The position numbers and the translations under genes were made by a program. From NCBI GenBank assembly GCA_037893245.1, contig JBAIAA010000023.1:1-64000 (forward strand): a stretch of DNA of 64,000 bases, given 5' to 3'. The DNA comes from Crossaster papposus. Its lineage: Eukaryota > Echinodermata > Asteroidea > Velatida > Solasteridae. Within the stretch, counting starts at the first letter, position 1; every line of letters begins with the position of its first letter. This document shows, piece after piece, positions 1-64,000 of this stretch. The notes below the pieces were generated by a model. It did no database searches. It was not told the origin of the DNA and saw only the letters and a program-made list of their open reading frames with translations.

Positions 1-1093
1 CTTTTTAACGTCAGATCACGAAACGGACTTACAACACTCCCAAATGGTCTATAGCGCCCATTGAGCCTAACAAACACTTTTTGGCACTATTTACCTTCAG
101 ATCACGAAATGGACTTACAACACTCCCAAATGCTCTATAGCGTCCATTTAGCGTAACAAACACTTTTCGGCACTTTTTACCTTCAGATCACAAAATGGAT
201 TTACAACACTCCCAAATGCTCTATAGCGTCCATTTAGCCTAACAAACACTTTTCGGCACTATTTACCTTCAGATCACAAAATTGACTAACAACACTCCCA
301 AATGCTCTATAGCGCCCATTGAGCCAAACAAACACTTTTCGGCACTTTTTACCGTCAGATCACGAAATGGACTTCCAACACTCCAAAATGGTCTATAGCG
401 CACATTGAGCCAAACAAACACTTTTTGGCACTATTTACCTTCAGATCACGAAATGGACTTACAACACTCCCAAATGCTCTATAGCGCCCATTGAGCCTAA
501 CAAACACTTTTCGGCACTTGTTACCTTCATATTACGAAATGGACTTACAACACTCCCAAATGCTCTATAGCGCCCATTGAGCCTAACAAACACTTTTCGG
601 CACTATTTACCTTTAGATCACGAAATTGAGTAACAACACTCCCAAATGCTCTATAGCGCCCATTGAGCCTAACAAACACTTTTCGGCACTATTTACCTTT
701 AGATCACGAAATTGACTAACAACACTCCCAAATGCTCTATAGCGCCCATTGAGCCTAACAAACACTTTTCGGCACTATTTACCTTCAGATCACGAAATGG
801 ACTTACAACACTCGAATATGGTCTATAGCGCCCATTGAGCCTAAGAAACAATTTTCGGCACTTTTTAACGTCAGATCACGAAACGGACTTACAACACTCC
901 CAAATGGTCTATAGCGCCCATTGAGCCTAACAAACACTTTTTGGCACTCTTTACCTTCAGATCACGAAATGGACTTACAACACTCCCAAATGCTCTATAG
1001 CGCCCAATTGAGCCTAACAAACACTTTTCGGCACTTTTTACCGTCAGATCACGAAATTGACTAACAACACTCCCAAATGCTCTATAGCGCCCA
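1..1093 (+). repeat. Partial HOR copy related to 7.8-8.6 kb
   Basis: From about 85 to 860 this stretch matches 7796-8571 at a constant offset of 7711 bp. Shared rare variants are TTGAGTAACAAC (near 627 and 8338) and CTCGAATATGG (811 and 8522). The +1 variant CCCAATTG then lies at 1003 here but at 8628 there, an offset of 7625, so one 86-bp monomer is missing from the other copy. The window therefore opens inside a further copy of the HOR found at 3.5-11.5 kb. No gene is present. Confidence 0.8.
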
Positions 1094-2125
1094 TTGAGCC
1101 TAAGAAACACTTTTCGGCACTTTTTAACGTCAGATCACGAAACGGACTTACAACACTCCCAAATGGTCTATAGCGCCCATTGAGCATAACAAACACTTTT
1201 TGGCACTATTTACCTTCAGATCACGAAATGGACTTACAACACTCCCAAATGCTCTATAGCGTCCATTTAGCCTAACAAACACTTTTCGGCACTATTTACC
1301 TTCAGATCACAAAATGGATTTACAACACTCCCAAATGGTCTATAGCGCCCATTGAGCCTAACAAACACTTTTCGGCACTATTTACCGTCAGATCACGAAA
1401 TGGACTTCCAACACCCCAAAATGGTCTGTAGCGCACATTGAGCCAAACAAACACTTTTTGGCACTATTTACCTTCAGATCACGAAATGGATTTACAACAC
1501 TCCCAAATGCTCTATAGCGCCCATTGAGCCTAACAAACACTTTTCGGCACTATTTACCTTTAGATCACGAAATTGACTAACAACACTCCCAAATGCTCTA
1601 TAGCGCCCATTGAGCCTAAGAAACACTTTTCGGCACTTTTTAACGTCAGATCACGAAACGGACTTACAACACTCCCAAATGGTCTATAGCGCCCATTGAG
1701 CATAACAAACACTTTTTGGCACTATTTACCTTCAGATCACGAAATGGACTTACAACACTCCCAAATGCTCTATAGCGTCCATTTAGCCTAACAAACACTT
1801 TTCGGCACTATTTACCTTCAGATCACAAAATGGATTTACAACACTCCCAAATGGTCTATAGCGCCCATTGAGCCTAACAAACACTTTTCGGCACTTTTTA
1901 CCGTCAGATCACGAAATGGACTTCCAACACCCCAAAATGGTCTGTAGCGCACATTGAGCCAAACAAACACTTTTTGGCACTATTTACCTTCAGATCACGA
2001 AATGGATTTACAACACTCCCAAATGCTCTATAGCGCCCATTGAGCCTAACAAACACTTTTCGGCACTATTTACCTTTAGATCACGAAATTGACTAACAAC
2101 ACTCCCAAATGCTCTATAGCGCCCA
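1094..2125 (+). repeat. 516-bp (6-monomer) tandem duplication
   Basis: Two adjacent copies of six monomers are offset by exactly 516 bp. The private variant GAGCATAACAAAC occurs at about 1182 and 1698. Both copies share the order AACGTC type, GTCCATTTAGCC type, ACAAAATGG type, ACCGTC with CACCCCAAAATGGTCTG, GCACATTG type, then AAATTGACTAAC type. They differ at few sites, for example ACTATTTACCGTC in the first and ACTTTTTACCGTC in the second. This is a recent local unequal exchange. Confidence 0.87.
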
Positions 2126-3545
2126 TTGAGCCTAACAAACACTTTTTGGCACTATTTACCTTCAGATCACGAAATGGACTTACAACACTCCCAAATGGTC
2201 TATAGCGCCCATTGAGCCTAACAAACACTTTTCGGCACTTTTTAACGTCAGATCACAAAACGGACACTTTTTGCCACTATTTACCTTCAGATTACGAAAT
2301 TGACTAACAACACTCCCAAATGCTCTATAGCGCCCATTGAGCCTAACAAACACTTTTCGGCACTATTTACCTTCAAATCACGAAATGGACTTACAACACT
2401 CGAAAATGGTCTTTAGCGCCCATTGAGCCTAAGAAACACTTTTCGGCACTTTTTAACGTCAGATCACGAAACGGACACTTTTTGGCACTATTTACCTTCA
2501 GATCACGAAATGGACTTACAACACTCCCAAATGCTCTATAGCGCCCATTGAGCCTAACAAACACTTTTCGGCACTTTTTACCTTCAGATCACGAAATTGA
2601 CTAACAACACTCCCAAATGCTCTATAGCGCCCATTGAGCCTAAGAAACACTTTTCGGCACTTTTTAACGTCAGATCACGAAACGGACTTACAACACTCCC
2701 AAATGGTCTATAGCGCCCATTGAGCCTAACAAACACTTTTTGGCACTATTTACCTTCAGATCACAAAATGGATTTACAACACTCCCAAATGCTCTATAGC
2801 GTCCATTTAGCCTAACAAACACTTTTCGGCACTATTTACCTTCAGATCACAAAATTGACTAACAACACTCCCAAATGCTCTATAGCGCCCATTGAGCCTA
2901 ACAAACACTTTTTGGCACTATTTACCTTCAGATCACGAAATGGACTTACATCACTCCCAAATGCTCTATAGCGTCAATTTAGCCTAACAAACACTTTTCG
3001 GCACTATTTACCTTCAGATCACAAAATGGATTTACAACACTCCCAAATGCTCTATAGCGCCCATTGAGCCAAACAAACACTTTTCGGCACTTTTTACCGT
3101 CAGATCACGAAATGGACTTCCAACACCCCAAAATGGTCTGTAGCGCACATTGAGCCAAACAAACACTTTTTGGCACTATTTACCTTCAGATCACGAAATG
3201 GATTTACAACACTCCCAAATGCACTATAGCGCCCATTGAGCCTAACAAACACTTTTCGGCACTATTTACCTTTAGATCACGAAATTGACTAACAACACTC
3301 CCAAATGCTCTATAGCGCCCATTGAGCCTAACAAACACTTTTTGGCACTATTTACCTTCAGATCACGAAATGGACTTACAACACTCCCAAATGGTCTATA
3401 GCGCCCATTGAGCCAAACAAACACTTTTCGGCACTTTTTACCGTCAGATCACGAAATGGACTTCCAACACCCCAAAATGGTCTGTAGCGCACATTGAGCC
3501 AAACAAACACTTTTTGGCACTATTTACCTTCAGATCACGAAATGG
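2126..3545 (+). repeat. Mixed satellite stretch with a 344-bp duplication
   Basis: This part holds two short-monomer junctions (CGGACACTTTTT at 2261 and 2472). It also holds a four-monomer (344-bp) duplication, about 3061-3404 and 3405-3748, in which CTTCCAACACCCC recurs at 3117 and 3461. Rare single-monomer changes include TTACATCACTCC near 2946 and GTCAATTTAGCC near 2970. It otherwise contains only standard monomers and no gene. Confidence 0.8.
2261..2682 (+). repeat. 211-bp cassettes with short monomer (x2)
   Basis: CGGACACTTTTT junctions lie at 2261 and 2472, and the next full CGGACTTAC monomer begins its matching site at 2683, so the spacing is 211 bp twice. Each cassette is one 39-bp short monomer plus two full 86-bp monomers. 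The first junction is followed by TTGCCAC, the second by TTGGCAC. Confidence 0.88.
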
Positions 3546-5899
3546 ATTTACAACACTCCCAAATGCTCTATAGCGCCCATTGAGCCTAACAAACACTTTT
3601 CGGCACTATTTACCTTTAGATCACGAAATTGACTAACAACACTCCCAAATGCTCTATAGCGCCCATTGAGCCTAACAAACACTTTTTGGCACTATTTACC
3701 TTCAGATCACGAAATGGACTTACAACACTCCCAAATGGTCTATAGCGCCCATTGAGCCTAACAAACACTTTTCGGCACTTTTTAACGTCAGATCACGAAA
3801 CGGACACTTTTTGCCACTATTTACCTTCAGATCACGAAAGGGACTTACAACACTCCCAAATGCTCTATAGCGCCCATTGAGCCTAACAAACACTTTTCGG
3901 CACTATTTACCTTTAAATCACGAAATGGACTTACAACACTCGAAAATGGTCTTTAGCGCCCATTGAGCCTAAGAAACACTTTTCGGCACTTTTTAACGTC
4001 AGATCACGAAACGGACACTTTTTGCCACTATTTACCTTCAGATCACGAAATTGACTAACAACACTCCCAAATGCTCTATAGCGCCCATTGAGCCTAACAA
4101 ACACTTTTCGGCACTATTTACCTTTAAATCACGAAATGGACTTACAACACTCGAAAATGGTCTTTAGCGCCCATTGAGCCTAAGAAACACTTTTCGGCAC
4201 TTTTTAACGTCAGATCACGAAACGGACACTTTTTGGCACTATTTACCTTCAGATCACGAAATGGACTTACAACACTCCCAAATGCTCTATAGCGCCCATT
4301 GAGCCTAACAAACACTTTTCGGCACTTTTTACCTTCAGATCACGAAATTGACTAACAACACTCCCAAATGCTCTATAGCGCCCATTGAGCCTAAGAAACA
4401 CTTTTCGGCACTTTTTAACGTCAGATCACGAAACGGACTTACAAACACTCCCAAATGGTCTATAGCGCCCATTGAGCCTAACAAACACTTGTTGGCACTA
4501 TTTACCTTCAGATCACGAAATGGACTTACAACACTCCCAAATGCTCTATAGCGTCCATTTAGCCTAACAAACACTTTTCGGCACTTTTTACCTTCAGATC
4601 ACAAAATGGATTTACAACACTCCCAAATGCTCTATAGCGTCCATTTAGCCTAACAAACACTTTTCGGCACTATTTACCTTCAGATCACAAAATTGACTAA
4701 CAACACTCCCAAATGCTCTATAGCGCCCATTGAGCCAAACAAACACTTTTCGGCACTTTTTACCGTCAGATCACGAAATGGACTTCCAACACTCCAAAAT
4801 GGTCTATAGCGCACATTGAGCCAAACAAACACTTTTTGGCACTATTTACCTTCAGATCACGAAATGGACTTACAACACTCCCAAATGCTCTATAGCGCCC
4901 ATTGAGCCTAACAAACACTTTTCGGCACTTTTTACCTTCAGATCACGAAATTGACTAACAACACTCCCAAATGCTCTATAGCGCCCATTGAGCCTAAGAA
5001 ACACTTTTCGGCACTTTTTAACGTCAGATCACGAAACGGACTTACAACACTCCCAAATGGTCTATAGCGCCCATTGAGCCTAACAAACACTTTTTGGCAC
5101 TATTTACCTTCAGATCACGAAATGGACTTACAACACTCGCAAATGCTCTATAGCGTCCATTTAGCCTAACAAACACTTTTCGGCACTTTTTACCTTCAGA
5201 TCACAAAATGGATTTACAACACTCCCAAATGCTCTATAGCGTCCATTTAGCCTAACAAACACTTTTCGGCACTATTTACCTTCAGATCACAAAATTGACT
5301 AACAACACTCCCAAATGCTCTATAGCGCCCATTGAGCCAAACAAACACTTTTCGGCACTTTTTACCGTCAGATCACGAAATGGACTTCCAACACTCCAAA
5401 ATGGTCTATAGCGCACATTGAGCCAAACAAACACTTTTTGGCACTATTTACCTTCAGATCACGAAATGGACTTACAACACTCCCAAATGCTCTATAGCGT
5501 CCATTTAGCCTAACAAACACTTTTCGGCACTTTTTACCTTCAGATCACAAAATGGATTTACAACACTCCCAAATGCTCTATAGCGTCCATTTAGCCTAAC
5601 AAACACTTTTCGGCACTATTTACCTTCAGATCACAAAATTGACTAACAACACTCCCAAATGCTCTATAGCGCCCATTGAGCCAAACAAACACTTTTCGGC
5701 ACTTTTTACCGTCAGATCACGAAATGGACTTCCAACACTCCAAAATGGTCTATAGCGCACATTGAGCCAAACAAACACTTTTTGGCACTATTTACCTTCA
5801 GATCACGAAATGGACTTACAACACTCCCAAATGCTCTATAGCGCCCATTGAGCCTAACAAACACTTTTCGGCACTTGTTACCTTCAGATTACGAAATGG
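3546..5899 (+). repeat. HOR copy A (2354 bp)
   Basis: This unit matches the next stretch at an offset of 2354 bp, which equals 26 full monomers, three 39-bp monomers and one extra base. Shared private marks are the +1 variant TTACAAACACTC (4440 and 6794), CTTGTTGGCAC (near 4489 and 6843) and CTCGCAAATGC (5136 and 7490). Homology starts near 3546, upstream of which the copies diverge (GGATTTAC against GGACTTAC). It contains the triple 211-bp cassette at 3801-4433. The unit is non-coding. Confidence 0.86.
3801..4433 (+). repeat. 211-bp cassettes with short monomer (x3)
   Basis: Junctions CGGACACTTTTT occur at 3801, 4012 and 4223, and the next full-length equivalent is at 4434, giving exact 211-bp spacing three times. 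The three cassettes are not identical inside: the first carries GAAAGGGAC, the second AAATTGAC, and the third AAATGGAC then AAATTGAC. The first two share CTCGAAAATGGTCTTTAGCG. Confidence 0.9.
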
Positions 5900-8722
5900 A
5901 CTTACAACACTCCCAAATGCTCTATAGCGCCCATTGAGCCTAACAAACACTTTTCGGCACTATTTACCTTTAGATCACGAAATTGACTAACAACACTCCC
6001 AAATGCTCTATAGCGCCCATTGAGCCTAACAAACACTTTTTGGCACTATTTACCTTCAGATCACGAAATGGACTTACAACACTCCCAAATGGTCTATAGC
6101 GCCCATTGAGCCTAACAAACACTTTTCGGCACTTTTTAACGTCAGATCACGAAACGGACACTTTTTGCCACTATTTACCTTCAGATCACGAAAGGGACTT
6201 ACAACACTCCCAAATGCTCTATAGCGCCCATTGAGCCTAACAAACACTTTTCGGCACTATTTACCTTCAAATCACGAAATGGACTTACAACACTCGAAAA
6301 TGGTCTTTAGCGCCCATTGAGCCTAAGAAACACTTTTCGGCACTTTTTAACGTCAGATCACGAAACGGACACTTTTTGCCACTATTTACCTTCAGATCAC
6401 GAAATTGACTAACAACACTCCCAAATGCTCTATAGCGCCCATTGAGCCTAACAAACACTTTTCGGCACTATTTACCTTTAAATCACGAAATGGACTTACA
6501 ACACTCGAAAATGGTCTTTAGCGCCCATTGAGCCTAAGAAACACTTTTCGGCACTTTTTAACGTCAGATCACGAAACGGACACTTTTTGGCACTATTTAC
6601 CTTCAGATCACGAAATGGACTTACAACACTCCCAAATGCTCTATAGCGCCCATTGAGCCTAACAAACACTTTTCGGCACTTTTTACCTTCAGATCACGAA
6701 ATTGACTAACAACACTCCCAAATGCTCTATAGCGCCCATTGAGCCTAAGAAACACTTTTCGGCACTTTTTAACGTCAGATCACGAAACGGACTTACAAAC
6801 ACTCCCAAATGGTCTATAGCGCCCATTGAGCCTAACAAACACTTGTTGGCACTATTTACCTTCAGATCACGAAATGGACTTACAACACTCCCAAATGCTC
6901 TATAGCGTCCATTTAGCCTAACAAACACTTTTCGGCACTTTTTACCTTCAGATCACAAAATGGATTTACAACACTCCCAAATGCTCTATAGCGTCCATTT
7001 AGCCTAACAAACACTTTTCGGCACTATTTACCTTCAGATCACAAAATTGACTAACAACACTCCCAAATGCTCTATAGCGCCCATTGAGCCAAACAAACAC
7101 TTTTCGGCACTTTTTACCGTCAGATCACGAAATGGACTTCCAACACTCTAAAATGGTCTATAGCGCACATTGAGCCAAACAAACACTTTTTGGCACTATT
7201 TACCTTCAGATCACGAAATGGACTTACAACACTCCCAAATGCTCTATAGCGCCCATTGAGCCTAACAAACACTTTTCGGCACTTTTTACCTTCAGATCAC
7301 GAAATTGACTAACAACACTCCCAAATGCTCTATAGCGCCCATTGAGCCTAAGAAACACTTTTCGGCACTTTTTAACGTCAGATCACGAAACGGACTTACA
7401 ACACTCCCAAATGGTCTATAGCGCCCATTGAGCCTAACAAACACTTTTTGGCACTATTTACCTTCAGATCACGAAATGGACTTACAACACTCGCAAATGC
7501 TCTATAGCGTCCATTTAGCCTAACAAACACTTTTCGACACTTTTTACCTTCAGATCACAAAATGGATTTACAACACTCCCAAATGCTCTATAGCGTCCAT
7601 TTAGCCTAACAAACACTTTTCGGCACTATTTACCTTCAGATCACAAAATTGACTAACAACACTCCCAAATGCTCTATAGCGCCCATTGAGCCAAACAAAC
7701 ACTTTTCGGCACTTTTTACCGTCAGATCACGAAATGGACTTCCAACACTCCAAAATGGTCTATAGCGCACATTGAGCCAAACAAACACTTTTTGGCACTA
7801 TTTACCTTCAGATCACGAAATGGACTTACAACACTCCCAAATGCTCTATAGCGTCCATTTAGCCTAACAAACACTTTTCGGCACTTTTTACCTTCAGATC
7901 ACAAAATGGATTTACAACACTCCCAAATGCTCTATAGCGTCCATTTAGCCTAACAAACACTTTTCGGCACTATTTACCTTCAGATCACAAAATTGACTAA
8001 CAACACTCCCAAATGCTCTATAGCGCCCATTGAGCCAAACAAACACTTTTCGGCACTTTTTACCGTCAGATCACGAAATGGACTTCCAACACTCCAAAAT
8101 GGTCTATAGCGCACATTGAGCCAAACAAACACTTTTTGGCACTATTTACCTTCAGATCACGAAATGGACTTACAACACTCCCCAATGCTCTATAGCGCCC
8201 ATTGAGCCTAACAAACACTTTTCGGCACTTGTTACCTTCAGATTACGAAATGGACTTACAACACTCCCAAATGCTCTATAGCGCCCATTGAGCCTAACAA
8301 ACACTTTTCGGCACTATTTACCTTTAGATCACGAAATTGAGTAACAACACTCCCAAATGCTTTATAGCGCCCATTGAGCCTAACAAACACTTTTCGGGAC
8401 TATTTACCTTTAGATCACGAAATTGACTAACAACACTCCCAAATGCTCTATAGCGCCCATTGAGCCTAACAAACACTTTTCGGCACTATTTACCTTCAGA
8501 TCACGAAATGGACTTACAACACTCGAATATGGTCTATAGCGCCCATTGAGCCTAAGAAACACTTTTCGGCACTTTTTAACGTCAGATCACGAAACGGACT
8601 TACAACACTCCCAAATGCTCTATAGCGCCCAATTGAGCCTAACAAACACTTTTCGGCACTTTTTACCTTCAGATCACGAAATTGACTAACAACACTCCCA
8701 AATGCTCTATAGCGCCCATTGA
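5680..8722 (+). repeat. HOR copy B (3043 bp)
   Basis: Copy B is linked to copy A by the 2354-bp offset (3801 to 6155) and to copy C by a 3043-bp offset before the cassettes and 2832 bp after them. The 211-bp difference is one short-monomer cassette that C lacks. It carries the same private marks as A (TTACAAACACTC at about 6794, CTCGCAAATGC at 7490) and ends with TTGAGTAAC (8338), CTCGAATATGG (8522) and CCCAATTG (8628). Its left edge overlaps the edge of A because the exchange point lies inside nearly identical monomers. Confidence 0.84.
6155..6787 (+). repeat. 211-bp cassettes with short monomer (x3)
   Basis: Junctions lie at 6155, 6366 and 6577, and the next full-length equivalent is at 6788. 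This is the copy B equivalent of the triplet at 3801-4433, 2354 bp downstream, with the same internal order of GAAAGGGAC and AAATTGAC monomers. Confidence 0.9.
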
Positions 8723-11554
8723 GCCAAACAAACACTTTTCGGCACTTTTTACCGTCAGATCACGAAATGGACTTCCAACACTCCAAAATGGTCTATAGCG
8801 CACATTGAGCCAAACAAACACTTTTTGGCACTATTTACCTTCAGATCACGAAATGGACTTACAACACTCCCAAATGCTCTATAGCGCCCATTGAGCCTAA
8901 CAAACACTTTTCGGCACTTGTTACCTTCAGATTACGAAATGGACTTACAACACTCCCAAATGCTCTATAGCGCCCATTGAGCCTAACAAACACTTTTCGG
9001 CACTATTTACCTTTAGATCACGAAATTGACTAACAACACTCCCAAATGCTCTATAGCGCCCATTGAGCCTAACAAACACTTTTTGGCACTATTTACCTTC
9101 AGATCACGAAATGGACTTACAACACTCCCAAATGGTCTATAGCGCCCATTGAGCCTAACAAACACTTTTCAGCACTTTTTAACGTCAGATCACGAAACGG
9201 ACACTTTTTGCCACTATTTACCTTCAGATCACGAAAGGGACTTACAACACTCCCAAATGCTCTATAGCGCCCATTGAGCCTAACAAACACTTTTCGGCAC
9301 TATTTACCTTCAAATCACGAAATGGACTTACAACACTCGAAAATGGTCTTTAGCGCCCATTGAGCCTAAGAAACACTTTTCGGCACTTTTTAACGTCAGA
9401 TCACGAAACGGACACTTTTTGCCACTATTTACCTTCAGATCACGAAATTGACTAACAACACTCCCAAATGCTCTATAGCGCCCATTGAGCCTAACAAACA
9501 CTTTTCGGCACTTTTTACCTTCAGATCACGAAATTGACTAACAACACTCCCAAATGCTCTATAGCGCCCATTGAGCCTAAGAAACACTTTTCGGCACTTT
9601 TTAACGTCAGATCACGAAACGGACTTACAAACACTCCCAAATGGTCTATAGCGCCCATTGAGCCTAACAAACACTTGTTGGCACTATTTACCTTCAGATC
9701 ACGAAATGGACTTACAACACTCCCAAATGCTCTATAGCGTCCATTTAGCCTAACAAACACTTTTCGGCACTTTTTACCTTCAGATCACAAAATGGATTTA
9801 CAACACTCCCAAATGCTCTATAGCGTCCATTTAGCCTAACAAACACTTTTCGGCACTATTTACCTTCAGATCACAAAATTGACTAACAACACTCCCAAAT
9901 GCTCTATAGCGCCCATTGAGCCAAACAAACACTTTTCGGCACTTTTTACCGTCAGATCACGAAATGGACTTCCAACACTCCAAAATGGTCTATAGCGCAC
10001 ATTGAGCCAAACAAACACTTTTTGGCACTATTTACCTTCAGATCACGAAATGGACTTACAACACTCCCAAATGCTCTATAGCGCCCATTGAGCCTAACAA
10101 ACACTTTTCGGCACTTTTTACCTTCAGATCACGAAATTGACTAACAACACTCCCAAATGCTCTATAGCGCCCATTGAGCCTAAGAAACACTTTTCGGCAC
10201 TTTTTAACGTCAGATCACGAAACGGACTTACAACACTCCCAAATGGTCTATAGCGCCCATTGAGCCTAACAAACACTTTTTGGCACTATTTACCTTCAGA
10301 TCACGAAATGGACTTACAACACTCGCAAATGCTCTATAGCGTCCATTTAGCCTAACAAACACTTTTCGGCACTTTTTACCTTCAGATCACAAAATGGATT
10401 TACAACACTCCCAAATGCTCTATAGCGTCCATTTAGCCTAACAAACACTTTTCGGCACTATTTACCTTCAGATCACAAAATTGACTAACAACACTCCCAA
10501 ATGCTCTATAGCGCCCATTGAGCCAAACAAACACTTTTCGGCACTTTTTACCGTCAGATCACGAAATGGACTTCCAACACTCCAAAATGGTCTATAGCGC
10601 ACATTGAGCCAAACAAACACTTTTTGGCACTATTTACCTTCAGATCACGAAATGGACTTACAACACTCCCAAATGCTCTATAGCGTCCATTTAGCCTAAC
10701 AAACACTTTTCGGCACTTTTTACCTTCAGATCACAAAATGGATTTACAACACTCCCAAATGCTCTATAGCGTCCATTTAGCCTAACAAACACTTTTCGGC
10801 ACTATTTACCTTCAGATCACAAAATTGACTAACAACACTCCCAAATGCTCTATAGCGCCCATTGAGCCAAACAAACACTTTTCGGCACTTTTTACCGTCA
10901 GATCACGAAATGGACTTCCAACACTCCAAAATGGTCTATAGCGCACATTGAGCCAAACAAACACTTTTTGGCACTATTTACCTTCAGATCACGAAATGGA
11001 CTTACAACACTCCCAAATGCTCTATAGCGCCCATTGAGCCTAACAAACACTTTTCGGCACTTGTTACCTTCAGATTACGAAATGGACTTACAACACTCCC
11101 AAATGCTCTATAGCGCCCATTGAGCCTAACAAACACTTTTCGGCACTATTTACCTTTAGATCACGAAATTGAGTAACAACACTCCCAAATGCTTTATAGC
11201 GCCCATTGAGCCTAACAAACACTTTTCGGGACTATTTACCTTTAGATCACGAAATTGACTAACAACACTCCCAAATGCTCTATAGCGCCCATTGAGCCTA
11301 ACAAACACTTTTCGGCACTATTTACCTTCAGATCACGAAATGGACTTACAACACTCGAATATGGTCTATAGCGCCCATTGAGCCTAAGAAACACTTTTCG
11401 GCACTTTTTAACGTCAGATCACGAAACGGACTTACAACACTCCCAAATGCTCTATAGCGCCCAATTGAGCCTAACAAACACTTTTCGGCACTTTTTACCT
11501 TCAGATCACGAAATTGACTAACAACACTCCCAAATGCTCTATAGCGCCCATTGA
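8723..11554 (+). repeat. HOR copy C (2832 bp)
   Basis: Copy C matches B at 2832 bp (TTACAAACACTC at about 9626, CTCGCAAATGC at 10322, GATTACG at 11073, CTCGAATATGG near 11354). The match breaks near 11554, where B continues with GCCAAACAAAC and C with GCCTAAGAAAC. It has only two short-monomer cassettes where A and B have three, which accounts for its being 211 bp shorter than B. Confidence 0.86.
9198..9619 (+). repeat. 211-bp cassettes with short monomer (x2)
   Basis: Junctions CGGACACTTTTT lie at 9198 and 9409, with the full-length equivalent at 9620. Compared with copies A and B, one 211-bp cassette is missing. This shows that cassette number varies between otherwise near-identical HOR copies. 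Confidence 0.89.
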
Positions 11555-13880
11555 GCCTAAGAAACACTTTTCGGCACTTTTTAACGTCAGATCACGAAAC
11601 GGACTTACAACACTCCCAAATGGTCTATAGCGCCCATTGAGCCTAACAAACACTTTTTGGCACTATTTACATTCAGATCACAAAATGGATTTACAACACT
11701 CCCAAATGGTCTATAGCGCCCATTGAGCCTAAGAAGCACTTTTCGGCACTTTTTACCTTCAGATTACGAAATTGACTAACAACACTCCCAAATGCTCTAT
11801 AGCGCCCATTGAGCCAAACAAACACTTTTCGGCACTTTTTACCGTCAGATCACGAAATGGACTTCCAACACTCCAAAATGGTCTATAGCGCACATTGAGC
11901 CAAACAAACACTTTTTCGCACTATTTACCTTCAGATCACGAAATGGATTTACAACACTCCCAAATGCTCTATAGCGCCCATTGAGCCTAACAAACACTTT
12001 TCGGCACTATTTACCTTTAGATCACGAAATTGACTAACAACACTCCCAAATGCTCTATAGCGCCCATTGAGCCTAACAAACACTTTTCGGCACTATTTAC
12101 CTTCAGATCACGAAATGGACTTACAACACTCGAAAATGGTCTATAGCGCCCATTGAGCCTAAGAAACACTTTTCGGCACTTTTTAACGTCAGATCACGAA
12201 ACGGACACTTTTTGCCACTATTTACCTTCAGATCACGAAAGGGACTTACAACACTCCCAAATGCTCTATAGCGCCCATTGAGCCTAACAAACACTTTTCG
12301 GCACTTTTTAACGTCAGATCACGAAACGGACTTACAACACTCCCAAATGGTCTATAGCGCCCATTGAGCCTAACAAACACTTTTTGGCACTATTTACCTT
12401 CAGATCACGAAATGGACTTACAACACTCCCAAATGCTCTATAGCGCCCATTGAGCCTAACAAACACTTTTTGGCACTCTTTACCTTCAGATCACGAAATG
12501 GACTTACAACACTCCCAAATGCTCTATAGCGCCCAATTGAGCCTAACAAACACTTTTCGGCACTTTTTACCTTCAGATCACGAAATTGACTAACAACACT
12601 CCCAAATGCTCTATAGCGCCCATTGAGCCTAAGAAACACTTTTCGGCACTTTTTAACGTCAGATCACGAAATTGACTAACAACACTCCCAAATGCTCTAT
12701 AGCGCCCATTGAGCCAAACAAACACTTTTCGGCACTTTTTACCGTCAGATCACGAAATGGACTTACAACACTCCCAAATGCTCTATAGCGTCCATTTAGC
12801 CTAACAAACACTTTTCGGCACTATTTACCTTCAGATCACAAAATTGACTAACAACACTCCCAAATGCTCTATAGCGCCCATTGAGCCAAACAAACACTTT
12901 TCGGCACTTTTTACCGTCAGATCACGAAATGGACTTCCAACACTCCAAAATGGTCTATAGCGCACATTGAGCCAAACAAACACTTTTTGGCACTATTTAC
13001 CTTCAGATCACGAAATGAACTTACAACACTCCCAAATGCTCTATAGCGCCCATTGAGCCTAACAAACACTTTTCGGCACTTGTTACCTTCAGATTACGAA
13101 ATGGACTTACAACACTCCCAAATGCTCTATAGCGCCCATTGAGCCTAACAAACACTTTTCGACACTATTTACCTTCAGATCACGAAATTGACTAACAACA
13201 CTCCCAAATGCTCTATAGCGCCCATTGAGCCTAAGAAACACTTTTCGGCACTTTTTAACGTCAGATCACGAAATTGACTAACAACACTCCCAAATGCTCT
13301 ATAGCGCCCATTGAGCCAAACAAACACTTTTCGGCACTTTTTACCGTCAGATCACGAAATGGACTTACAACACTCCCAAATGCTCTATAGCGTCCATTTA
13401 GCCTAACAAACACTTTTCGGCACTATTTACCTTCAGATCACAAAATTGACTAACAACACTCCCAAATGCTCTATAGCGCCCATTGAGCCAAACAAACACT
13501 TTTCGGCACTTTTTACCGTCAGATCACGAAATGGACTTCCAACACTCCAAAATGGTCTATAGCGCACATTGAACCAAACAAACACTTTTTGGCACTATTT
13601 ACCTTCAGATCACGAAATGGACTTACAACACTCCCAAATGCTCTATAGCGCCCATTGAGCCTAACAAACACTTTTCGGCACTTGTTACCTTTAGATTACG
13701 AAATGGACTTACAACACTCCCAAATGCTCTATAGCGCCCATTGAGCCTAACAAACACTTTTCGGCACTATTTACCTTTAGATCACGAAATTGAGTAACAA
13801 CACTCCCAAATGCTTTATAGCGCCCATTGAGCCTAACAAACACTTTTCGGCACTATTTACCTTTAGATCACGAAATTGAC
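11555..13880 (+). repeat. Mixed satellite stretch with a 602-bp duplication
   Basis: Standard monomers in mixed order, with one short monomer at 12202 and a +1 CCCAATTG at about 12534. The second half is a seven-monomer duplication at a 602-bp offset, in which AACGTC followed directly by AAATTGACTAAC recurs at 12656 and 13258. Homology between the two copies begins near 12545. Differences between them include GCACATTGAACC near 13564 against GCACATTGAGCC in the first copy. No gene is present. Confidence 0.82.
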
Positions 13881-46219: not shown

Positions 46220-46759
46220 TTTACCGTCAGATCACGAAATGGACTTCCAACACCCCAAAATGGTCTGTAGCGCACATTGAGCCAAACAAACACTTTTTGG
46301 CACTATTTACCTTCAGATCACGAAATGGATTTACAACACTCCCAAATGCTCTATAGCGCCCATTGAGCCTAACAAACACTTTTCGGCACTATTTACCTTT
46401 AGATCACGAAATTGACTAACAACACTCCCAAATGCTCTATAGCGCCCATTGAGCCTAACAAACACTTTTCGGCACTTTTTAACGTCAGATCACGAAACGG
46501 ACTTACAACACTCCCAAATGGTCTATAGTGCCCATTGAGCCTAACAAACACTTTTTGGCACTATTTACCTTCAGATCACGAAATGGACTTACAACACTCC
46601 CAAATGCTCTATAGCGCCCATTGAGCCTAACAAACACTTTTCGGCACTTTTTACCTTCAGATCACGAAATTGACTAACAACACTCCCAAATGCTCTATAG
46701 CGCCCATTGAGCCTAAGAAACACTTTTCGGCACTTGTTAACGTCATATCACGAAACGGA

Positions 46760-49700: not shown

Positions 49701-50885
49701 GCTCTATAGCGCCCATTGAGCCTAACAAACACTTTTCGGCACTATTTACCTTTAGATCACGAAATTGACTAACAACACTCCCAAATGCTCTATAGCGCCC
49801 ATTGAGCCTAACAAACACTTTTCGGCACTATTTACCTTCAGATCACGAAATGGACTTACAACACTCGAAAATGGTCTATAGCGCCCATTGAGCCTAAGAA
49901 ACACTTTTCGGCACTTTTTAACGTCAGATCACGAAACGGACACTTTTTGCCACTATTTACCTTCAGATCACGAAAGGGACTTACAACACTCCCAAATGCT
50001 CTATAGCGCCCATTGAGCCTAACAAACACTTTTCGGCACTTTTTAACGTCAGATCACGAAACGGACTTACAACACTCCCAAATAGTCTATAGCGCCCATT
50101 GAGCCTAACAAACACTTTTTGGCACTATTTACCTTCAGATCACGAAATGGACTTACAACACTCCCAAATGCTCTATAGCGCCCATTGAGCCTAACAAACA
50201 CTTTTCGGCACTTTTTACCTTCAGATCACGAAATTGACTAACAACACTCCCAAATGCTCTATAGCGCCCATTGAGCCTAAAAAACACTTTTCGGCACTTT
50301 TTAACGTCAGATCACGAAACGGACTTATAACACTCCCAAATAGTCTATAGCGCCCATTGAGCCTAACAAACACTTTTTGGCAATATTTACCTTCAAATCA
50401 CGAAATGGACTTACAACACTCGAAAATGGTCTTTAGCGCCCATTGAGCCTAAGAAACACTTTTCTGCACTTTTTAACGTCAGATCACGAAACGGACACTT
50501 TTTGGCACTATTTACCTTCAGATCACGAAATGGACTTACAACACTCCCAAATGCTCTATAGCGCCCATTGAGCCTAACAAACACTTTTCGGCACTATTTA
50601 CCTTCAAATCACGAAATGGACTTACAACACTCGAAAATGGTCTTTAGCGCCCATTGAGCCTAAGAAACACTTTTCGGCACTTTTTAACGTCAGATCACGA
50701 AACGGACACTTTTTGGCACTATTTACCTTCAGATCACGAAATGGACTTACAACACTCCCAAATGCTCTATAGCGCCCATTGAGCCTAACAAACACTTTTC
50801 GGCACTTTTTACCTTCAGATCACGAAATTGACTAACAACACTCCCAAATGCTCTATAGCGCCCATTGAGCCTAAGAAACACTTTT
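46760..50885 (+). repeat. 2063-bp subunit pair inside the 5534-bp unit
   Basis: CTTATAACAC occurs at 46760 and 48823, 2063 bp apart. CTCCCGAATGG (near 47286 and 49349), TTTTTCTCAC (near 47067 and 49130) and GAGCATAACAAAC (near 47139 and 49202) recur at the same spacing. The same pair is present in the second 5534-bp copy. The right edge given is a nominal two unit lengths; homology between the subunits fades near 49.8 kb. Confidence 0.8.
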
Positions 50886-50913
50886 CGGCACTTTTTAACG
50901 TCAGATCACGAAA
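50492..50913 (+). repeat. 211-bp cassettes with short monomer (x2)
   Basis: Junctions at 50492 and 50703 are followed by the full-length equivalent at 50914. Both junctions are followed by TTGGCAC, and the first is preceded by the private TTCTGCAC. Confidence 0.89.
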
Positions 50914-51754
50914 CGGACTTACAACACTCCCAAATGGTCTATAGCGCCCATTGAGCCTAACAAACACTTTTTGGCACTATTTACCTTCAGATCACGAAAT
51001 GGACTTACAACACTCCCAAATGCTCTATAGCGTCCATTTAGCCTAACAAACACTTTTCGGCACTTTTTACCTTCAGATCACAAAATGGATTTACAACACT
51101 CCCAAATGCTCTATAGCGTCCATTTAGCCTAACAAACACTTTTCGGCACTATTTACCTTCAGATCACAAAATTGACTAACAACACTCCCAAATGCTCTAT
51201 AGCGCCCATTGAGCCAAACAAACACTTTTCGGCACTTTTTACCGTCAGATCACGAAATGGACTTCCAACACTCCAAAATGGTCTATAGCGCACATTGAGC
51301 CAAACAAACACTTTTTGGCACTATTTACCTTCAGATCACGAAATGGACTTACAACACTCCCAAATGCTCTATAGCGCCCATTGAGCCTAACAAACACTTT
51401 TCGGCACTTGTTACCTTCAGATTACGAAATGGACTTACAACACTCCCAAATGCTCTATAGCGCCCATTGAGCCTAACAAACACTTTTCGGCACTATTTAC
51501 CTTTAGATCACGAAATTGAGTAACAACACTCCCAAATGCTTTATAGCGCCCATTGAGCCTAACAAACACTTTTCGGCACTATTTACCTTTAGATCACGAA
51601 ATTGACTAACAACACTCCCAAATGCTCTATAGCGCCCATTGAGCCTAACAAACACTTTTCGGCACTATTTACCTTTAGATCACGAAATTGACTAACAACA
51701 CTCCCAAATGCTCTATAGCGCCCATTGAGCCTAACAAACACTTTTCGGCACTTT

Positions 51755-51800
51755 TTAACGTCAGATCACGAAATGGACTTCCAACACCCCAAAATGGTCT
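51755..51800 (+). repeat. Hybrid monomer at the 5534-bp junction
   Basis: Here TTTTTAACGTC, which is the left half of one monomer type, is joined to TGGACTTCCAACACCCC, the right half of another. Elsewhere in the window that right half follows ACCGTC. The position coincides with the calculated edge between the two 5534-bp copies, so it is best read as the exchange point. Confidence 0.8.
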
Positions 51801-54800
51801 GTAGCGCACATTGAGCCAAACAAACACTTTTTGGCACTATTTACCTTCAGATCACGAAATGGATTTACAACACTCCCAAATGCTCTATAGCGCCCATTGA
51901 GCCTAACAAACACTTTTCGGCACTATTTACCTTTAGATCACGAAATTGACTAACAACACTCCCAAATGCTCTATAGCGCCCATTGAGCCTAACAAACACT
52001 TTTCGGCACTTTTTAACGTCAGATCACGAAACGGACTTACAACACTCCCAAATGGTCTATAGTGCCCATTGAGCCTAACAAACACTTTTTGGCACTATTT
52101 ACCTTCAGATCACGAAATGGACTTACAACACTCCCAAATGCTCTATAGCGCCCATTGAGCCTAACAAACACTTTTCGGCACTTTTTACCTTCAGATCACG
52201 AAATTGACTAACAACACTCCCAAATGCTCTATAGCGCCCATTGAGCCTAAGAAACACTTTTCGGCACTTGTTAACGTCATATCACGAAACGGACTTATAA
52301 CACTCCCAAATAGTCTATAGCGCCCATTGAGCCTAACAAACACTTTTTGGCACTATTTACCTTCAGATCACGAAATGGACTTACAACACTCCCAAATGCT
52401 CTATAGCGTCCATTTAGCCCAACAAACACTTTTCGGCACTTTTTACATTCAGATCACAAAATGGATTTACAACACTCCCAAATGCTCTATAGCGCCCATT
52501 GAGCCAAACAAACACTTTTCGGCACTTTTTACCGTCAGATCACGAAATGGACTTCCAACACTCCAAAATGGTCTATAGCGCACATTGAGCCAAACAAACA
52601 CTTTTTCTCACTATTTACCTTCAGATCACGAAATGGATTTACAACACTCCCAAATGCTCTATAGCGCCCATTGAGCATAACAAACACTTTTTGGCACTAT
52701 TTACCTTTAGATCACGAAATTGACTAACAACACTCCCAAATGCTCTATAGCGCCCATTGAGCCTAACAAACACTTTTTGGCACTATTTACCTTCAGATCA
52801 CGAAATGGACTTACAACACTCCCGAATGGTCTATAGCGCCCATTGAGCCTAACAAACACTTTTCGGCACTATTTACCTTCAGATCACAAAATGGATTTAC
52901 AACACTCCCAAATGGTCTATAGCGCCCATTGAGCCTAACAAACACTTTTCGGCACTTTTTACCTTCAGATCACGAAATTGACTAACAACACTCCCAAATG
53001 CTCTATAGCGCCCATTGAGCCAAACAAACACTTTTCGGCACTTTTTACCGTCAGATCACGAAATGGACTTCCAACACCCCAAAATGGTCTGTAGCGCACA
53101 TTGAGCCAAACAAACACTTTTTGGCACTATTTACCTTCAGATCACGAAATGGATTTACAACACTCCCAAATGCTCTATAGCGCCCATTGAGCCTAACAAA
53201 CACTTTTCGGCACTATTTACCTTCAGATCACGAAATGGACTTACAACACTCGAAAATGGTCTATAGCGCCCATTGAGCCTAACAAACACTTTTTGGCACT
53301 ATTTACCTTCAGATCACGAAATGGACTTACAACACTCCCAAATGCTCTATAGCGCCCATTGAGCCTAACAAACACTTTTCGGCACTTTTTACCTTCAGAT
53401 CACGAAATTGACTAACAACACTCCAAATGCTCTATAGCGCCCATTGAGCCTAAGAAACACTTTTCGGCACTTTTTAACGTCAGATCACGAAACGGACTTA
53501 CAACACTCCCAAATGGTCTATAGCGCCCATTGAGCCTAACAAACACTTTTTGGCACTATTTACCTTCAGATCACGAAATGGACTTACAACACTCCCAAAT
53601 GCTCTATAGCGTCCATTTAGCCTAACAAACACTTTTCGGCACTATTTACCTTCAGATCACAAAATGGATTTACAACACTCCCAAATGGTCTATAGCGCCC
53701 ATTGAGCCTAACAAACACTTTTCGGCACTTTTTACCTTCAGATCACGAAATTGACTAACAACACTCCCAAATGCTCTATAGCGCCCATTGAGCCAAACAA
53801 ACACTTTTCGGCACTTTTTACCGTCAGATCACGAAATGGACTTCCAACACCCCAAAATGGTCTGTAGCGCACATTGAGCCAAACAAACACTTTTTGGCAC
53901 TATTTACCTTCAGATCACGAAATGGATTTACAACACTCCCAAATGCTCTATAGCGCCCATTGAGCCTAACAAACACTTTTCGGCACTATTTACCTTTAGA
54001 TCACGAAATTGACTAACAACACTCCCAAATGCTCTATAGCGCCCATTGAGCCTAACAAACACTTTTCGGCACTTTTTAACGTCAGATCACGAAACGGACT
54101 TACAACACTCCCAAATGGTCTATAGCGCCCATTGAGCCTAACAAACACTTTTTGGCACTATTTACCTTCAGATCACGAAATGGACTTACAACACTCCCAA
54201 ATGCTCTATAGCGCCCATTGAGCCTAACAAACACTTTTCGGCACTTTTTACCTTCAGATCACGAAATTGACTAACAACACTCCCAAATGCTCTATAGCGC
54301 CCATTGAGCCTCAGAAACACTTTTCGGCACTTGTTAACGTCATATCACGAAACGGACTTATAACACTCCCAAATAGTCTATAGCGCCCATTGAGCCTAAC
54401 AAACACTTTTGGGCACTATTTACCTTCAGATCACGAAATGGACTTACAACACTCCCAAATGCTCTATAGCGTCCATTTAGCCCAACAAACACTTTTCGGC
54501 ACTTTTTACATTCAGATCACAAAATGGATTTACAACACTCCCAAATGCTCTATAGCGCCCATTGAGCCAAACAAACACTTTTCGGCACTTTTTACCGTCA
54601 GATCACGAAATGGACTTCCAACACTCCAAAATGGTCTATAGCGCACATTGAGCCAAACAAACACTTTTTCTCACTATTTACCTTCAGATCACGAAATGGA
54701 TTTACAACACTCCCAAATGCTCTATAGCGCCCATTGAGCATAACAAACACTTTTTGGCACTATTTACCTTTAGATCACGAAATTGACTAACAACACTCCC

Positions 54801-56025
54801 AAATGCTCTATAGCGCCCATTGAGCCTAACAAACACTTTTTGGCACTATTTACCTTCAGATCACGAAATGGACTTACAACACTCCCGAATGGTCTATAGC
54901 GCCCATTGAGCCTAACAAACACTTTTCGGCACTATTTACCTTCAGATCACAAAATGGATTTACAACACTCCCAAATGGTCTATAGCGCCCATTGAGCCTA
55001 ACAAACACTTTTCGGCACTTTTTACCTTCAGATCACGAAATTGACTAACAACACTCCCAAATGCTCTATAGCGCCCATTGAGCCAAACAAACACTTTTCG
55101 GCACTTTTTACCGTCAGATCACGAAATGGACTTCCAACACCCCAAAATGGTCTGTAGCGCACATTGAGCCAAACAAACACTTTTTGGCACTATTTACCTT
55201 CAGATCACGAAATGGATTTACAACACTCCCAAATGCTCTATAGCGCCCATTGAGCCTAACAAACACTTTTCGGCACTATTTACCTTTAGATCACGAAATT
55301 GACTAACAACACTCCCAAATGCTCTATAGCGCCCATTGAGCCTAACAAACACTTTTCGGCACTATTTACCTTCAGATCACGAAATGGACTTACAACACTC
55401 GAAAATGGTCTATAGCGCCCATTGAGCCTAAGAAACACTTTTCGGCACTTTTTAACGTCAGATCACGAAACGGACACTTTTTGCCACTATTTACCTTCAG
55501 ATCACGAAAGGGACTTACAACACTCCCAAATGCTCTATAGCGCCCATTGAGCCTAACAAACACTTTTCGGCACTTTTTAACGTCAGATCACGAAACGGAC
55601 TTACAACACTCCCAAATAGTCTATAGCGCCCATTGAGCCTAACAAACACTTTTTGGCACTATTTACCTTCAGATCACGAAATGGACTTACAACACTCCCA
55701 AATGCTCTATAGCGCCCATTGAGCCTAACAAACACTTTTCGGCACTTTTTACCTTCAGATCACGAAATTGACTAACAACACTCCCAAATGCTCTATAGCG
55801 CCCATTGAGCCTAAAAAACACTTTTCGGCACTTTTTAACGTCAGATCACGAAACGGACTTATAACACTCCCAAATAGTCTATAGCGCCCATTGAGCCTAA
55901 CAAACACTTTTTGGCAATATTTACCTTCAAATCACGAAATGGACTTACAACACTCGAAAATGGTCTTTAGCGCCCATTGAGCCTAAGAAACACTTTTCTG
56001 CACTTTTTAACGTCAGATCACGAAA

Positions 56026-56447
56026 CGGACACTTTTTGGCACTATTTACCTTCAGATCACGAAATGGACTTACAACACTCCCAAATGCTCTATAGCGCCC
56101 ATTGAGCCTAACAAACACTTTTCGGCACTATTTACCTTCAAATCACGAAATGGACTTACAACACTCGAAAATGGTCTTTAGCGCCCATTGAGCCTAAGAA
56201 ACACTTTTCGGCACTTTTTAACGTCAGATCACGAAACGGACACTTTTTGGCACTATTTACCTTCAGATCACGAAATGGACTTACAACACTCCCAAATGCT
56301 CTATAGCGCCCATTGAGCCTAACAAACACTTTTCGGCACTTTTTACCTTCAGATCACGAAATTGACTAACAACACTCCCAAATGCTCTATAGCGCCCATT
56401 GAGCCTAAGAAACACTTTTCGGCACTTTTTAACGTCAGATCACGAAA
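56026..56447 (+). repeat. 211-bp cassettes with short monomer (x2)
   Basis: Junctions at 56026 and 56237 lie exactly 5534 bp from 50492 and 50703. They are the second-copy partners of that pair. Confidence 0.89.
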
Positions 56448-56789
56448 CGGACTTACAACACTCCCAAATGGTCTATAGCGCCCATTGAGCCTAACAAACA
56501 CTTTTTGGCACTATTTACCTTCAGATCACGAAATGGACTTACAACACTCCCAAATGCTCTATAGCGTCCATTTAGCCTAACAAACACTTTTCGGCACTTT
56601 TTACCTTCAGATCACAAAATGGATTTACAACACTCCCAAATGCTCTATAGCGTCCATTTAGCCTAACAAACACTTTTCGGCACTATTTACCTTCAGATCA
56701 CAAAATTGACTAACAACACTCCCAAATGCTCTATAGCGCCCATTGAGCCAAACAAACACTTTTCGGCACTTTTTACCGTCAGATCACGA

Positions 56790-59425
56790 AATGGACTTCC
56801 AACACTCCAAAATGGTCTATAGCGCACATTGAGCCAAACAAACACTTTTTGGCACTATTTACCTTCAGATCACGAAATGGACTTACAACACTCCCAAATG
56901 CTCTATAGCGCCCATTGAGCCTAACAAACACTTTTCGGCACTTGTTACCTTCAGATTACGAAATGGACTTACAACACTCCCAAATGCTCTATAGCGCCCA
57001 TTGAGCCTAACAAACACTTTTCGGCACTATTTACCTTTAGATCACGAAATTGAGTAACAACACTCCCAAATGCTTTATAGCGCCCATTGAGCCTAACAAA
57101 CACTTTTCGGCACTATTTACCTTTAGATCACGAAATTGACTAACAACACTCCCAAATGCTCTATAGCGCCCATTGAGCCTAACAAACACTTTTCGGCACT
57201 ATTTACCTTCAGATCACGAAATGGACTTACAACACTCGAATATGGTCTATAGCGCCCATTGAGCCTAAGAAACACTTTTCGGCACTTTTTAACGTCAGAT
57301 CACGAAACGGACTTACAACACTCCCAAATGGTCTATAGCGCCCATTGAGCCTAACAAACACTTTTTGGCACTCTTTACCTTCAGATCACGAAATGGACTT
57401 ACAACACTCCCAAATGCTCTATAGCGCCCAATTGAGCCTAACAAACACTTTTCGGCACTTTTTACCTTCAGATCACGAAATTGACTAACAACACTCCCAA
57501 ATGCTCTATAGCGCCCATTGAGCCTAAGAAACACTTTTCGGCACTTTTTAACGTCAGATCACGAAACGGACTTACAACACTCCCAAATGGTCTATAGCGC
57601 CCATTGAGCCTAACAAACACTTTTTGGCACTATTTACCTTCAGATCACGAAATGGACTTACAACACTCGAATATGGTCTATAGCGCCCATTGAGCCTAAG
57701 AAACACTTTTCGGCACTTTTTAACGTCAGATCACGAAACGGACTTACAACACTCCCAAATGGTCTATAGCGCCCATTGAGCCTAACAAACACTTTTTGGC
57801 ACTCTTTACCTTCAGATCACGAAATGGACTTACAACACTCCCAAATGCTCTATAGCGCCCAATTGAGCCTAACAAACACTTTTCGGCACTTTTTACCTTC
57901 AGATCACGAAATTGACTAACAACACTCCCAAATGCTCTATAGCGCCCATTGAGCCTAAGAAACACTTTTCGGCACTTTTTAACGTCAGATCACGAAACGG
58001 ACTTACAACACTCCCAAATGGTCTATAGCGCCCATTGAGCCTAACAAACACTTTTTGGCACTATTTACCTTCAGATCACGAAATGGACTTACAACACTCC
58101 CAAATGCTCTATAGCGCCCATTGAGCCTAACAAACACTTTTCGGCACTTTTTACCTTCAGATCACGAAATTGACTAACAACACTCCAAATGCTCTATAGC
58201 GCCCATTGAGCCTAAGAAACACTTTTCGGCACTTTTTAACGTCAGATCACGAAACGGACTTACAACACTCCCAAATGGTCTATAGCGCCCATTGAGCCTA
58301 ACAAACACTTTTTGGCACTATTTACCTTCAGATCACGAAATGGACTTACAACACTCCCAAATGCTCTATAGCGTCCATTTAGCCTAACAAACACTTTTCG
58401 GCACTATTTACCTTCAGATCACAAAATGGATTTACAACACTCCCAAATGGTCTATAGCGCCCATTGAGCCTAACAAACACTTTTCGGCACTATTTACCTT
58501 CAGATCACGAAATGGACTTACAACACTCGAAAATGGTCTATAGCGCCCATTGAGCCTAAGAAACACTTTTCGGCACTTTTTAACGTCAGATCACGAAACG
58601 GACACTTTTTGCCACTATTTACCTTCAGATCACGAAAGGGACTTACAACACTCCCAAATGCTCTATAGCGCCCATTGAGCCTAACAAACACTTTTTGCCA
58701 CTATTTACCTTCAGATCACGAAAGGGACTTACAACACTCCCAAATGCTCTATAGCGCCCATTGAGCCTAACAAACACTTTTCGGCACTTGTTACCTTCAG
58801 ATCACGAAACGGACTTACAACACTCCCAAATGCTCTATAGCGCCCATTGAGCCTAAGAAACACTTTTCGGCACTTTTTAACGTCAGATCACGAAACGGAC
58901 TTACAACACTCCCAAATGGTCTATAGCGCCCATTGAGCCTAACAAACACTTTTTGGCACTATTTACCTTCAGATCACGAAATGGACTTACAACACTCCCA
59001 AATGCTCTATAGCGTCCATTTAGCCTAACAAACACTTTTCGGCACTATTTACCTTCAGATCACAAAATGGATTTACAACACTCCCAAATGGTCTATAGCG
59101 CCCATTGAGCCTAACAAACACTTTTCGGCACTTTTTACCTTCAGATCACGAAATTGACTAACAACACTCCCAAATGCTCTATAGCGCCCATTGAGCCAAA
59201 CAAACACTTTTCGGCACTTTTTACCGTCAGATCACGAAATGGACTTCCAACACCCCAAAATGGTCTGTAGCGCACATTGAGCCAAACAAACACTTTTTGG
59301 CACTATTTACCTTCAGATCACGAAATGGATTTACAACACTCCCAAATGCTCTATAGCGCCCATTGAGCCTAACAAACACTTTTCGGCACTATTTACCTTT
59401 AGATCACGAAATTGACTAACAACAC
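56790..59425 (+). repeat. 2620-bp tandem duplication, first copy
   Basis: This unit matches the next at 2620 bp, equal to 30 monomers, one short monomer and one extra base. CTCGAATATGG, the two CCCAATTG monomers (near 57431 and 57860) and their flanks all recur at this offset. Its left edge overlaps the end of the 5534-bp unit because the duplicated segment begins inside it. A short monomer lies at 58599. Confidence 0.86.
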
Positions 59426-59450
59426 TCCAAAATGGTCTATAGCGCACATT
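59400..59450 (+). repeat. Hybrid monomer at the 2620-bp junction
   Basis: AAATTGACTAACAACACTCC is followed directly by AAAATGGTCTATAGCGCAC. In the rest of the window the second segment follows GGACTTCCAACACTCC. The hybrid sits where the first 2620-bp copy ends and the second begins (56781 plus 2620 is 59401), so it records the exchange point within the shared AACACTCC. Confidence 0.82.
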
Positions 59451-61950: not shown

Positions 61951-64000
61951 TAACAACACTCCCAAATGCTCTATAGCGCCCATTGAGCCTAACAAACACT
62001 TTTTGCCACTATTTACCTTCAGATCACGAAAGGGACTTACAACACTCCCAAATGCTCTATAGCGCCCATTGAGCCTAACAAACACTTTTCGGCACTTTTT
62101 AACGTCAGATCACGAAACGGACTTACAACACTCCCAAATGGTCTATAGCGCCCATTGAGCCTAACAAACACTTTTTGGCACTATTTACCTTCAGATCACG
62201 AAATGGACTTACAACACTCCCAAATGCTCTATAGCGCCCATTGAGCCTAACAAACACTTTTCGGCACTTTTTACCTTCAGATCACGAAATTGACTAACAA
62301 CACTCCCAAATGCTCTATAGCGCCCATTGAGCCTAAGAAACACTTTTCGGCACTTTTTAACGTCATATCACGAAACGGACTTATAACACTCCCAAATAGT
62401 CTATAGCGCCCATTGAGCCTAACAAACACTTTTTGGCACTATTTACCTTCAGATCACGAAATTGACTTACAACACTCCCAAATGCTCTATAGCGTCCATT
62501 TAGCCCAACAAACACTTTTCGGCACTTTTTACATTCAGATCACAAAATGGATTTACAACACTCCCAAATGCTCTATAGCGCCCATTGAGCCAAACAAACA
62601 CTTTTCGGCACTTTTTACCGTCAGATCACGAAATGGACTTCCAACACTCCAAAATGGTCTATAGCGCACATTGAGCCAAACAAACACTTTTTCGCACTAT
62701 TTACCTTCAGATCACGAAATGGATTTACAACACTCCCAAATGCTCTATAGCGCCCATTGAGCCTAACAAACACTTTTTGGCACTATTTACCTTTAGATCA
62801 CGAAATTGACTAACAACACTCCCAAATGCTCTATAGCGCCCATTGAGCCTAACAAACACTTTTTGGCACTATTTACCTTCAGATCACGAAATGGACTTAC
62901 AACACTCCCGAATGGTCTATAGCGCCCATTGAGCCTAACAAACACTTTTCGGCACTATTTACCTTCAGATCACAAAATGGATTTACAACACTCCCAAATG
63001 GTCTATAGCGCCCATTGAGCCTAACAAACACTTTTCGGCACTTTTAACCTTCAGATCACGAAATTGACTAACAACACTCCCAAATGCTCTATAGCGCCCA
63101 TTGAGCCAAACAAACACTTTTCGGCACTTTTTACCGTCAGATCACGAAATGGACTTCCAACACCCCAAAATGGTCTGTAGCGCACATTGAGCCAAACAAA
63201 CACTTTTTGGCACTATTTACCTTCAGATCACGAAATGGATTTACAACACTCCCAAATGCTCTATAGCGCCCATTGAGCCTAACAAACACTTTTCGGCACT
63301 ATTTACCTTTAGATCACGAAATTGACTAACAACACTCCCAAATGCTCTATAGCGCCCATTGAGCCTAACAAACACTTTTCGGCACTATTTACCTTCAGAT
63401 CACGAAATGGACTTACAACACTCGAAAATGGTCTATAGCGCCCATTGAGCCTAAGAAACACTTTTCGGCACTTTTTAACGTCAGATCACGAAACGGACAC
63501 TTTTTGCCACTATTTACCTTCAGATCACGAAAGGGACTTACAACACTCCCAAATGCTCTATAGCGCCCATTGAGCCTAACAAACACTTTTTGCCACTATT
63601 TACCTTCAGATCACGAAAGGGACTTACAACACTCCCAAATGCTCTATAGCGCCCATTGAGCCTAACAAACACTTTTCGGCACTTTTTACCTTCAGATCAC
63701 GAAACGGACTTACAACACTCCCAAATGCTCTATAGCGCCCATTGAGCCTAAGAAACACTTTTCGGCACTTTTTAACGTCAGATCACGAAACGGACTTACA
63801 ACACTCCCAAATGGTCTATAGCGCCCATTGAGCCTAACAAACACTTTTTGGCACTATTTACCTTCAGATCACGAAATGGACTTACAACACTCCCAAATGC
63901 TCTATAGCGTCCATTTAGCCTAACAAACACTTTTCGGCACTATTTACCTTCAGATCACAAAATGGATTTACAACACTCCCAAATGGTCTATAGCGCCCAT
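61951..64000 (+). repeat. Further HOR copy, cut by the window end
   Basis: From about 62090 this matches the 54.1-55.4 kb block at 8023 bp (CTTATAACAC at 62380 and 54357, CTCCCGAATGG near 62906). It then runs into GAAAGGGAC and short-monomer sequence (junction at 63494) like that at 61.1 kb. It differs from all four copies at 46-55 kb in having TTTTTCGCAC and GAGCCTAACAAAC where they have TTTTTCTCAC and GAGCATAACAAAC. It also has the private CACTTTTAACCTTC near 63040. The array continues past the end. Confidence 0.82.

Follow-up and report, generated by a model that had tools for sequence, protein, structure and literature searches.

The stretch of DNA analysed here (the window), which comprises the first 64,000 of the 124,073 bases of contig C23 of the starfish Crossaster papposus, is satellite DNA, that is, a long head-to-tail array of one non-coding unit, and its 86-bp monomers form an irregular mosaic of overlapping block duplications rather than one regular higher-order repeat (HOR). 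The array is an ordinary satellite from a clade that has received little study, and its higher-order arrangement is unusually rich. The 86-bp repeat is probably a clade-specific echinoderm satellite family in satellite-rich DNA, acting as structural heterochromatin rather than as the seat of the kinetochore.

Positions 1 to 64,000, forward strand: 86-bp satellite array of 725 full monomers, running on past the window on the same contig.

Wrap-around alignment to the monomer fitted all 64,000 of the 64,000 bases to the 86-bp consensus at 94.8% identity (60,667 matching bases, 26 inserted, 5 deleted and 38 jumps), and the weakest 200-bp step of the window still reached 91.5%. Not one of the 1,584 distinct 14-mers recurs on the opposite strand, so the array has a single orientation and is without inversion. 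The original prediction that one monomer family fills the window, with no transposon, inversion or unique sequence, is thus borne out by the whole-window alignment and the reverse 14-mer count together, as is the 86-bp period itself. Among the 725 full monomers there are 141 distinct sequences, the commonest exact type being present in 51 copies, and neighbouring monomers share a mean identity of 91.3%. Base composition is uniform, with a G+C content of 41–42% and a GC skew of about −0.36 all along the window, and CpG is hardly depleted (observed/expected 0.96).

There is no sign of coding in the 86-bp satellite. No open reading frame of at least 100 amino acids is present in the window (ATG, GTG and TTG starts, table 11), scans of the window returned no tRNA and no Rfam match at the gathering score, and positions 1 to 4,000 had no match in either the phage or the plasmid collection. 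Within the two-monomer consensus, exact inverted repeats reach no more than 6 bp. A thin literature search, using a 13-base piece of the monomer and the unit size with topic words, found no published account of it; the one match to the 13-base piece was a black raspberry linkage paper, which is unrelated. Echinoderm satellites look little studied, since none was a title subject among the literature matches listed.

The order of the monomers is far from random. Average-linkage clustering of the 725 full monomers with a cut at 3 differences gave 27 clusters, and strings of these types contain 94 distinct neighbour pairs as against a mean of 263.28 and a minimum of 252 in 100 shuffles, and 340 distinct 6-mers of monomer letters as against a shuffled mean of 759.98. 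Like types avoid one another as neighbours (0.021 versus 0.080 expected). At a larger scale, block copies occur at many lags with identities of 95.7–99.9%, the following being the five tabulated.

Positions 29,560 to 43,444, forward strand: block copy, 29,560–36,884 and 36,120–43,444, lag 6,560, 98.6% over 7,325 bp.
Positions 46,075 to 57,209, forward strand: block copy, 46,075–51,675 and 51,609–57,209, lag 5,534, 99.9% over 5,601 bp.
Positions 2,475 to 8,487, forward strand: block copy, 2,475–6,133 and 4,829–8,487, lag 2,354, 97.8% over 3,659 bp.
Positions 6,201 to 11,836, forward strand: block copy, 6,201–9,004 and 9,033–11,836, lag 2,832, 98.8% over 2,804 bp.
Positions 45,147 to 49,920, forward strand: block copy, 45,147–47,857 and 47,210–49,920, lag 2,063, 98.4% over 2,711 bp.

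Two of the levels of organisation that had been proposed are recovered directly in such copies, the 1.3–3 kb level at lags of 1,376, 1,465, 2,058, 2,063, 2,354 and 2,832 and the 5.5–6.6 kb level at lags of 5,534 and 6,560. The proposed 344–602 bp level survives in part: a lag of 7 monomers (602 bp) is a genuine peak of type agreement (0.141, with 0.080 expected and a maximum of 0.123 in 200 shuffles), whereas a lag of 4 monomers (344 bp) gives 0.055 and thus no separate peak at the level of monomer types, the high base identity at 344 bp arising because 344 is a multiple of 86. HORs are defined in section 11 of PMC4053949 and in PMC10153287. In the window, block copies are more alike than neighbouring monomers (95.7–99.9% versus a mean of 91.3%), and there is no single multi-monomer unit in regular tandem: across all lags shorter than 200 monomers, type agreement peaks at 0.165. 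Since no period or unit tiles the window, the array is called here a mosaic of duplicated blocks; the "nested HORs" of the earlier description are right as to higher-order structure and non-random order and loose as a name. That the satellite is homogenised and has higher-order structure is upheld by its 141 distinct sequences among 725 monomers, its ordered neighbours and its block copies.

A further period in the window comes from truncated units rather than from whole monomers.

Positions 2,225 to 63,496, forward strand: 38 short 39-bp units that stop after monomer base 39 (first 2,225–2,263, last 63,458–63,496).

In 37 of the 38, exactly 39 bases align and the junction is identical; the remaining unit (44,704–44,742) also has 39 bases, which base changes made the aligner split into 34 + 5. 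Four of the junctions were checked by eye. The short units produce periods of 125 and 211 bp, the latter being 86 + 86 + 39, so that the 211-bp period of the original prediction, which TRF finds at many places, has its source in the 39-bp units and a 47-bp deletion. A single such deletion, copied along with its surroundings, would account for all 38 units. No 39-bp unit appears in the monomer strings of five 10-kb samples of another contig, C406, and the short variant therefore has its own distribution.

Comparison between contigs indicates that homogenisation of the 86-bp satellite is local, within each array sampled. On average, a monomer finds its best match at 0.995–0.999 within its own contig sample and at 0.976–0.995 in other samples, and the fraction of monomers with an exact twin in another sample ranges from 12 to 69% by pair, being lowest for contig C385. 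The majority consensus is nevertheless identical across five sample sets, except for one base in the second set from C23.

The assembly surveyed contains 1,023,315,904 bases in 1,841 contigs, and the 86-bp family lies in at least five of these (from 40 scored places among 1,293 candidates), beside other satellites. Beyond the window, all stretches of C23 that were read, including the final 400 bases, are 86-bp satellite; together with the window they cover all but about 29 kb of the contig. On C406 (360,036 bases) the same holds for eight of eight stretches checked, 50,800 bases in total. On C497 the family occupies all stretches read in the first 105.2 kb. On C385, which is 1,687,928 bases long, the array extends over about 40 kb, from approximately 453,381 to 493,815, an extent estimated from partial reading of the span. 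On C2, the satellite is absent at 400 kb and at 500 kb; between these points it begins by 430 kb at the latest and reaches 490 kb or beyond. Its monomers match the consensus at 84–95% at 430–435 kb and at 94–98% at 479–482 kb, so this array is diverged along one side and homogenised inside, and one 3-kb sample of it shows a more regular higher unit of 1,032 or 1,204 bp.

Several other features were seen in the course of this survey. A further satellite is common to the ends of C497 (180 kb to the end) and C2 (550–783 kb), on the latter in both orientations, and two more tandem repeats lie at the start of C2 and the end of C385; satellites seem to be a frequent breaking point of contigs. On the minus strand of C385, at about 440.4–443.8 kb (sample L021:408–3782) and thus some 10 kb away from the array described above, lies part of a Ty3/gypsy-type retrotransposon, with a reverse transcriptase, an RNase H-like domain and a zinc knuckle (Pfam) and a Ty3-like protein as its best PDB match. 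Contig C1841 (16,330 bases) is mitochondrial: it begins with a tRNA (Rfam), which is followed by small-subunit rRNA (by eye), tRNA-Glu and tRNA-Thr, further on by ND1 and three tRNAs on the minus strand, and then by tRNA-Gln, COX1, ND4L and COX2 on the plus strand, the protein names being a reading of translations whose frames are open under code 9. The gene order of asteroid mitochondria is described as conserved in PMC7947835. The contig marks the host as an echinoderm and most likely as a starfish, a brittle star or a crinoid being less probable.

Abundance bears on the role of the family. A 49-base core of the monomer has 15,886 exact copies in the assembly (8,560 forward and 7,326 reverse, with 0 for a reversed control), which corresponds to 5.8 Mb at the density of the window or 8.0 Mb at that of 130 kb of other samples, 0.56–0.78% of the assembly; like the figures that follow, this is an assembly-based estimate from exact short words, hence rough and possibly too low where arrays have collapsed or diverged. 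A 31-bp satellite (TATTTCTTATGCACACTTCTTTCCCTTTACA) has 1,082,143 exact copies, or about 46 Mb and about 4.5% of the assembly when calibrated on five samples, four of which were best hits. It has a 67-bp variant unit, and the 40 places scored out of 2,584 candidates show it nearly unchanged across at least 13 contigs. A 24-base piece of a 217-bp satellite has 40,393 copies, giving 8.8 Mb if those units alone are counted and about 13.8 Mb, or about 1.35% of the assembly, at the density of two samples; this satellite occurs at several places in single contigs (on C9 at 616–672 kb and at 2,158 kb), and in the C385 samples it occupies L024:3816–10000 and L021:7617–9993. Among the three satellites counted (31, 86 and 217 bp), the 31-bp repeat is thus about six to eight times commoner than the 86-bp one.

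PMC4053949 takes the most abundant tandem repeat of a genome as its centromere candidate, a rule that proved right for most species whose centromeres are known and has exceptions in maize and the Tammar wallaby. Under it, the 86-bp satellite, at about 5.8–8.0 Mb as against about 46 and 13.8 Mb, is not the candidate; the 31-bp satellite is, because it is the most abundant of those counted, and the 86-bp repeat is most likely a heterochromatic companion. The array was built by the copying of multi-monomer blocks, with which the 47-bp deletion probably spread, and the copying may have gone through unequal sister-chromatid exchange or gene conversion. The array would be packed in silent chromatin as structural heterochromatin in a pericentromeric or interstitial position, and the far commoner 31-bp satellite would be the better candidate for the kinetochore seat.

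The original prediction had instead suggested a centromeric or similar core array of an undescribed family. Centromere cores also look like long, insertion-free, higher-order arrays, and it could be envisioned that the 86-bp arrays, in which two monomers (172 bp) come close to one nucleosome repeat, are the active core, carrying CENP-A on some or all chromosomes, with the 31-bp satellite as flanking pericentromere. Consistent with this are the 64 kb without insertion, the higher-order arrangement with recent block copying, the satellite in all stretches checked of C23 (124,073 bp) and C406 (360,036 bp), and the homogenised interior and diverged side of the C2 array. Against it, the 86-bp repeat is the least abundant among the three satellites that were counted; the array of about 40 kb on C385 sits within a 1.69-Mb contig between stretches of the multi-site 217-bp satellite; and a search of both strands of the 86-bp satellite for the CENP-B box (the motif and two looser forms) gave 0 matches. 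A CENP-B box is not required outside mammals. On balance the centromere-core reading is weakened, no longer leads, and appears rather doubtful. The broader proposal that the centromeres of this echinoderm are built on alpha-satellite-like higher-order mosaics of the 86-bp unit, with the much larger 31-bp satellite as pericentromere, is unlikely; were it true, rich higher-order centromeric repeats would have arisen independently, far from primates.

It is quite improbable that the 86-bp repeat is a subtelomeric, sex-chromosome or B-chromosome satellite confined to a few chromosomes; the placement of the family in five contigs among the matches listed (at least five, with 40 of 1,293 candidates scored, while the listed first places of the 49-base core are all on C2) would fit such a distribution, and nothing speaks directly against it. 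That misassembly, in the form of a contig wrongly repeated or collapsed, produced part of the higher-order blocks is scarcely credible, for although C23 has satellite at both ends, which are sites of assembler error, the copies carry substitutions (95.7% to 99.9% identity at many lags) and samples of other contigs have a similar yet different block order.

As putative structural heterochromatin, the 86-bp family can be set beside both its neighbours and better-known arrays. Within the same genome, the 31-bp satellite also forms long arrays and adjoins the 86-bp array on C497 near 105.2 kb, and the 217-bp satellite, also tandem, flanks both sides of the array on C385; each differs from the 86-bp repeat in period and sequence, and the 217-bp satellite is the more abundant. 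The 31-, 86- and 217-bp units provide three concrete probes for locating starfish centromeres. More widely, a HiFi survey of 21 species including the starfish Marthasterias glacialis (PMC10153287) reports most as lacking rich HORs, and the mosaic is therefore of some interest in itself, adding a multi-monomer HOR case in an echinoderm; against that interest, simple HORs are widespread, an older Sanger survey having found clear ones, mostly of two monomers, in 76 of 171 species (PMC4053949).

Among known systems, the HORs of primate alpha satellite are a close parallel. The alpha monomer is 171 bp rather than 86 bp and the host is unrelated; the 86-bp satellite differs further in having no CENP-B box and no single period that tiles the window. 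What the two systems share is their architecture: tandem monomers that are unlike their neighbours find matching copies one block away, and diverged monomers lie beside a homogenised interior, as they do here on C2.
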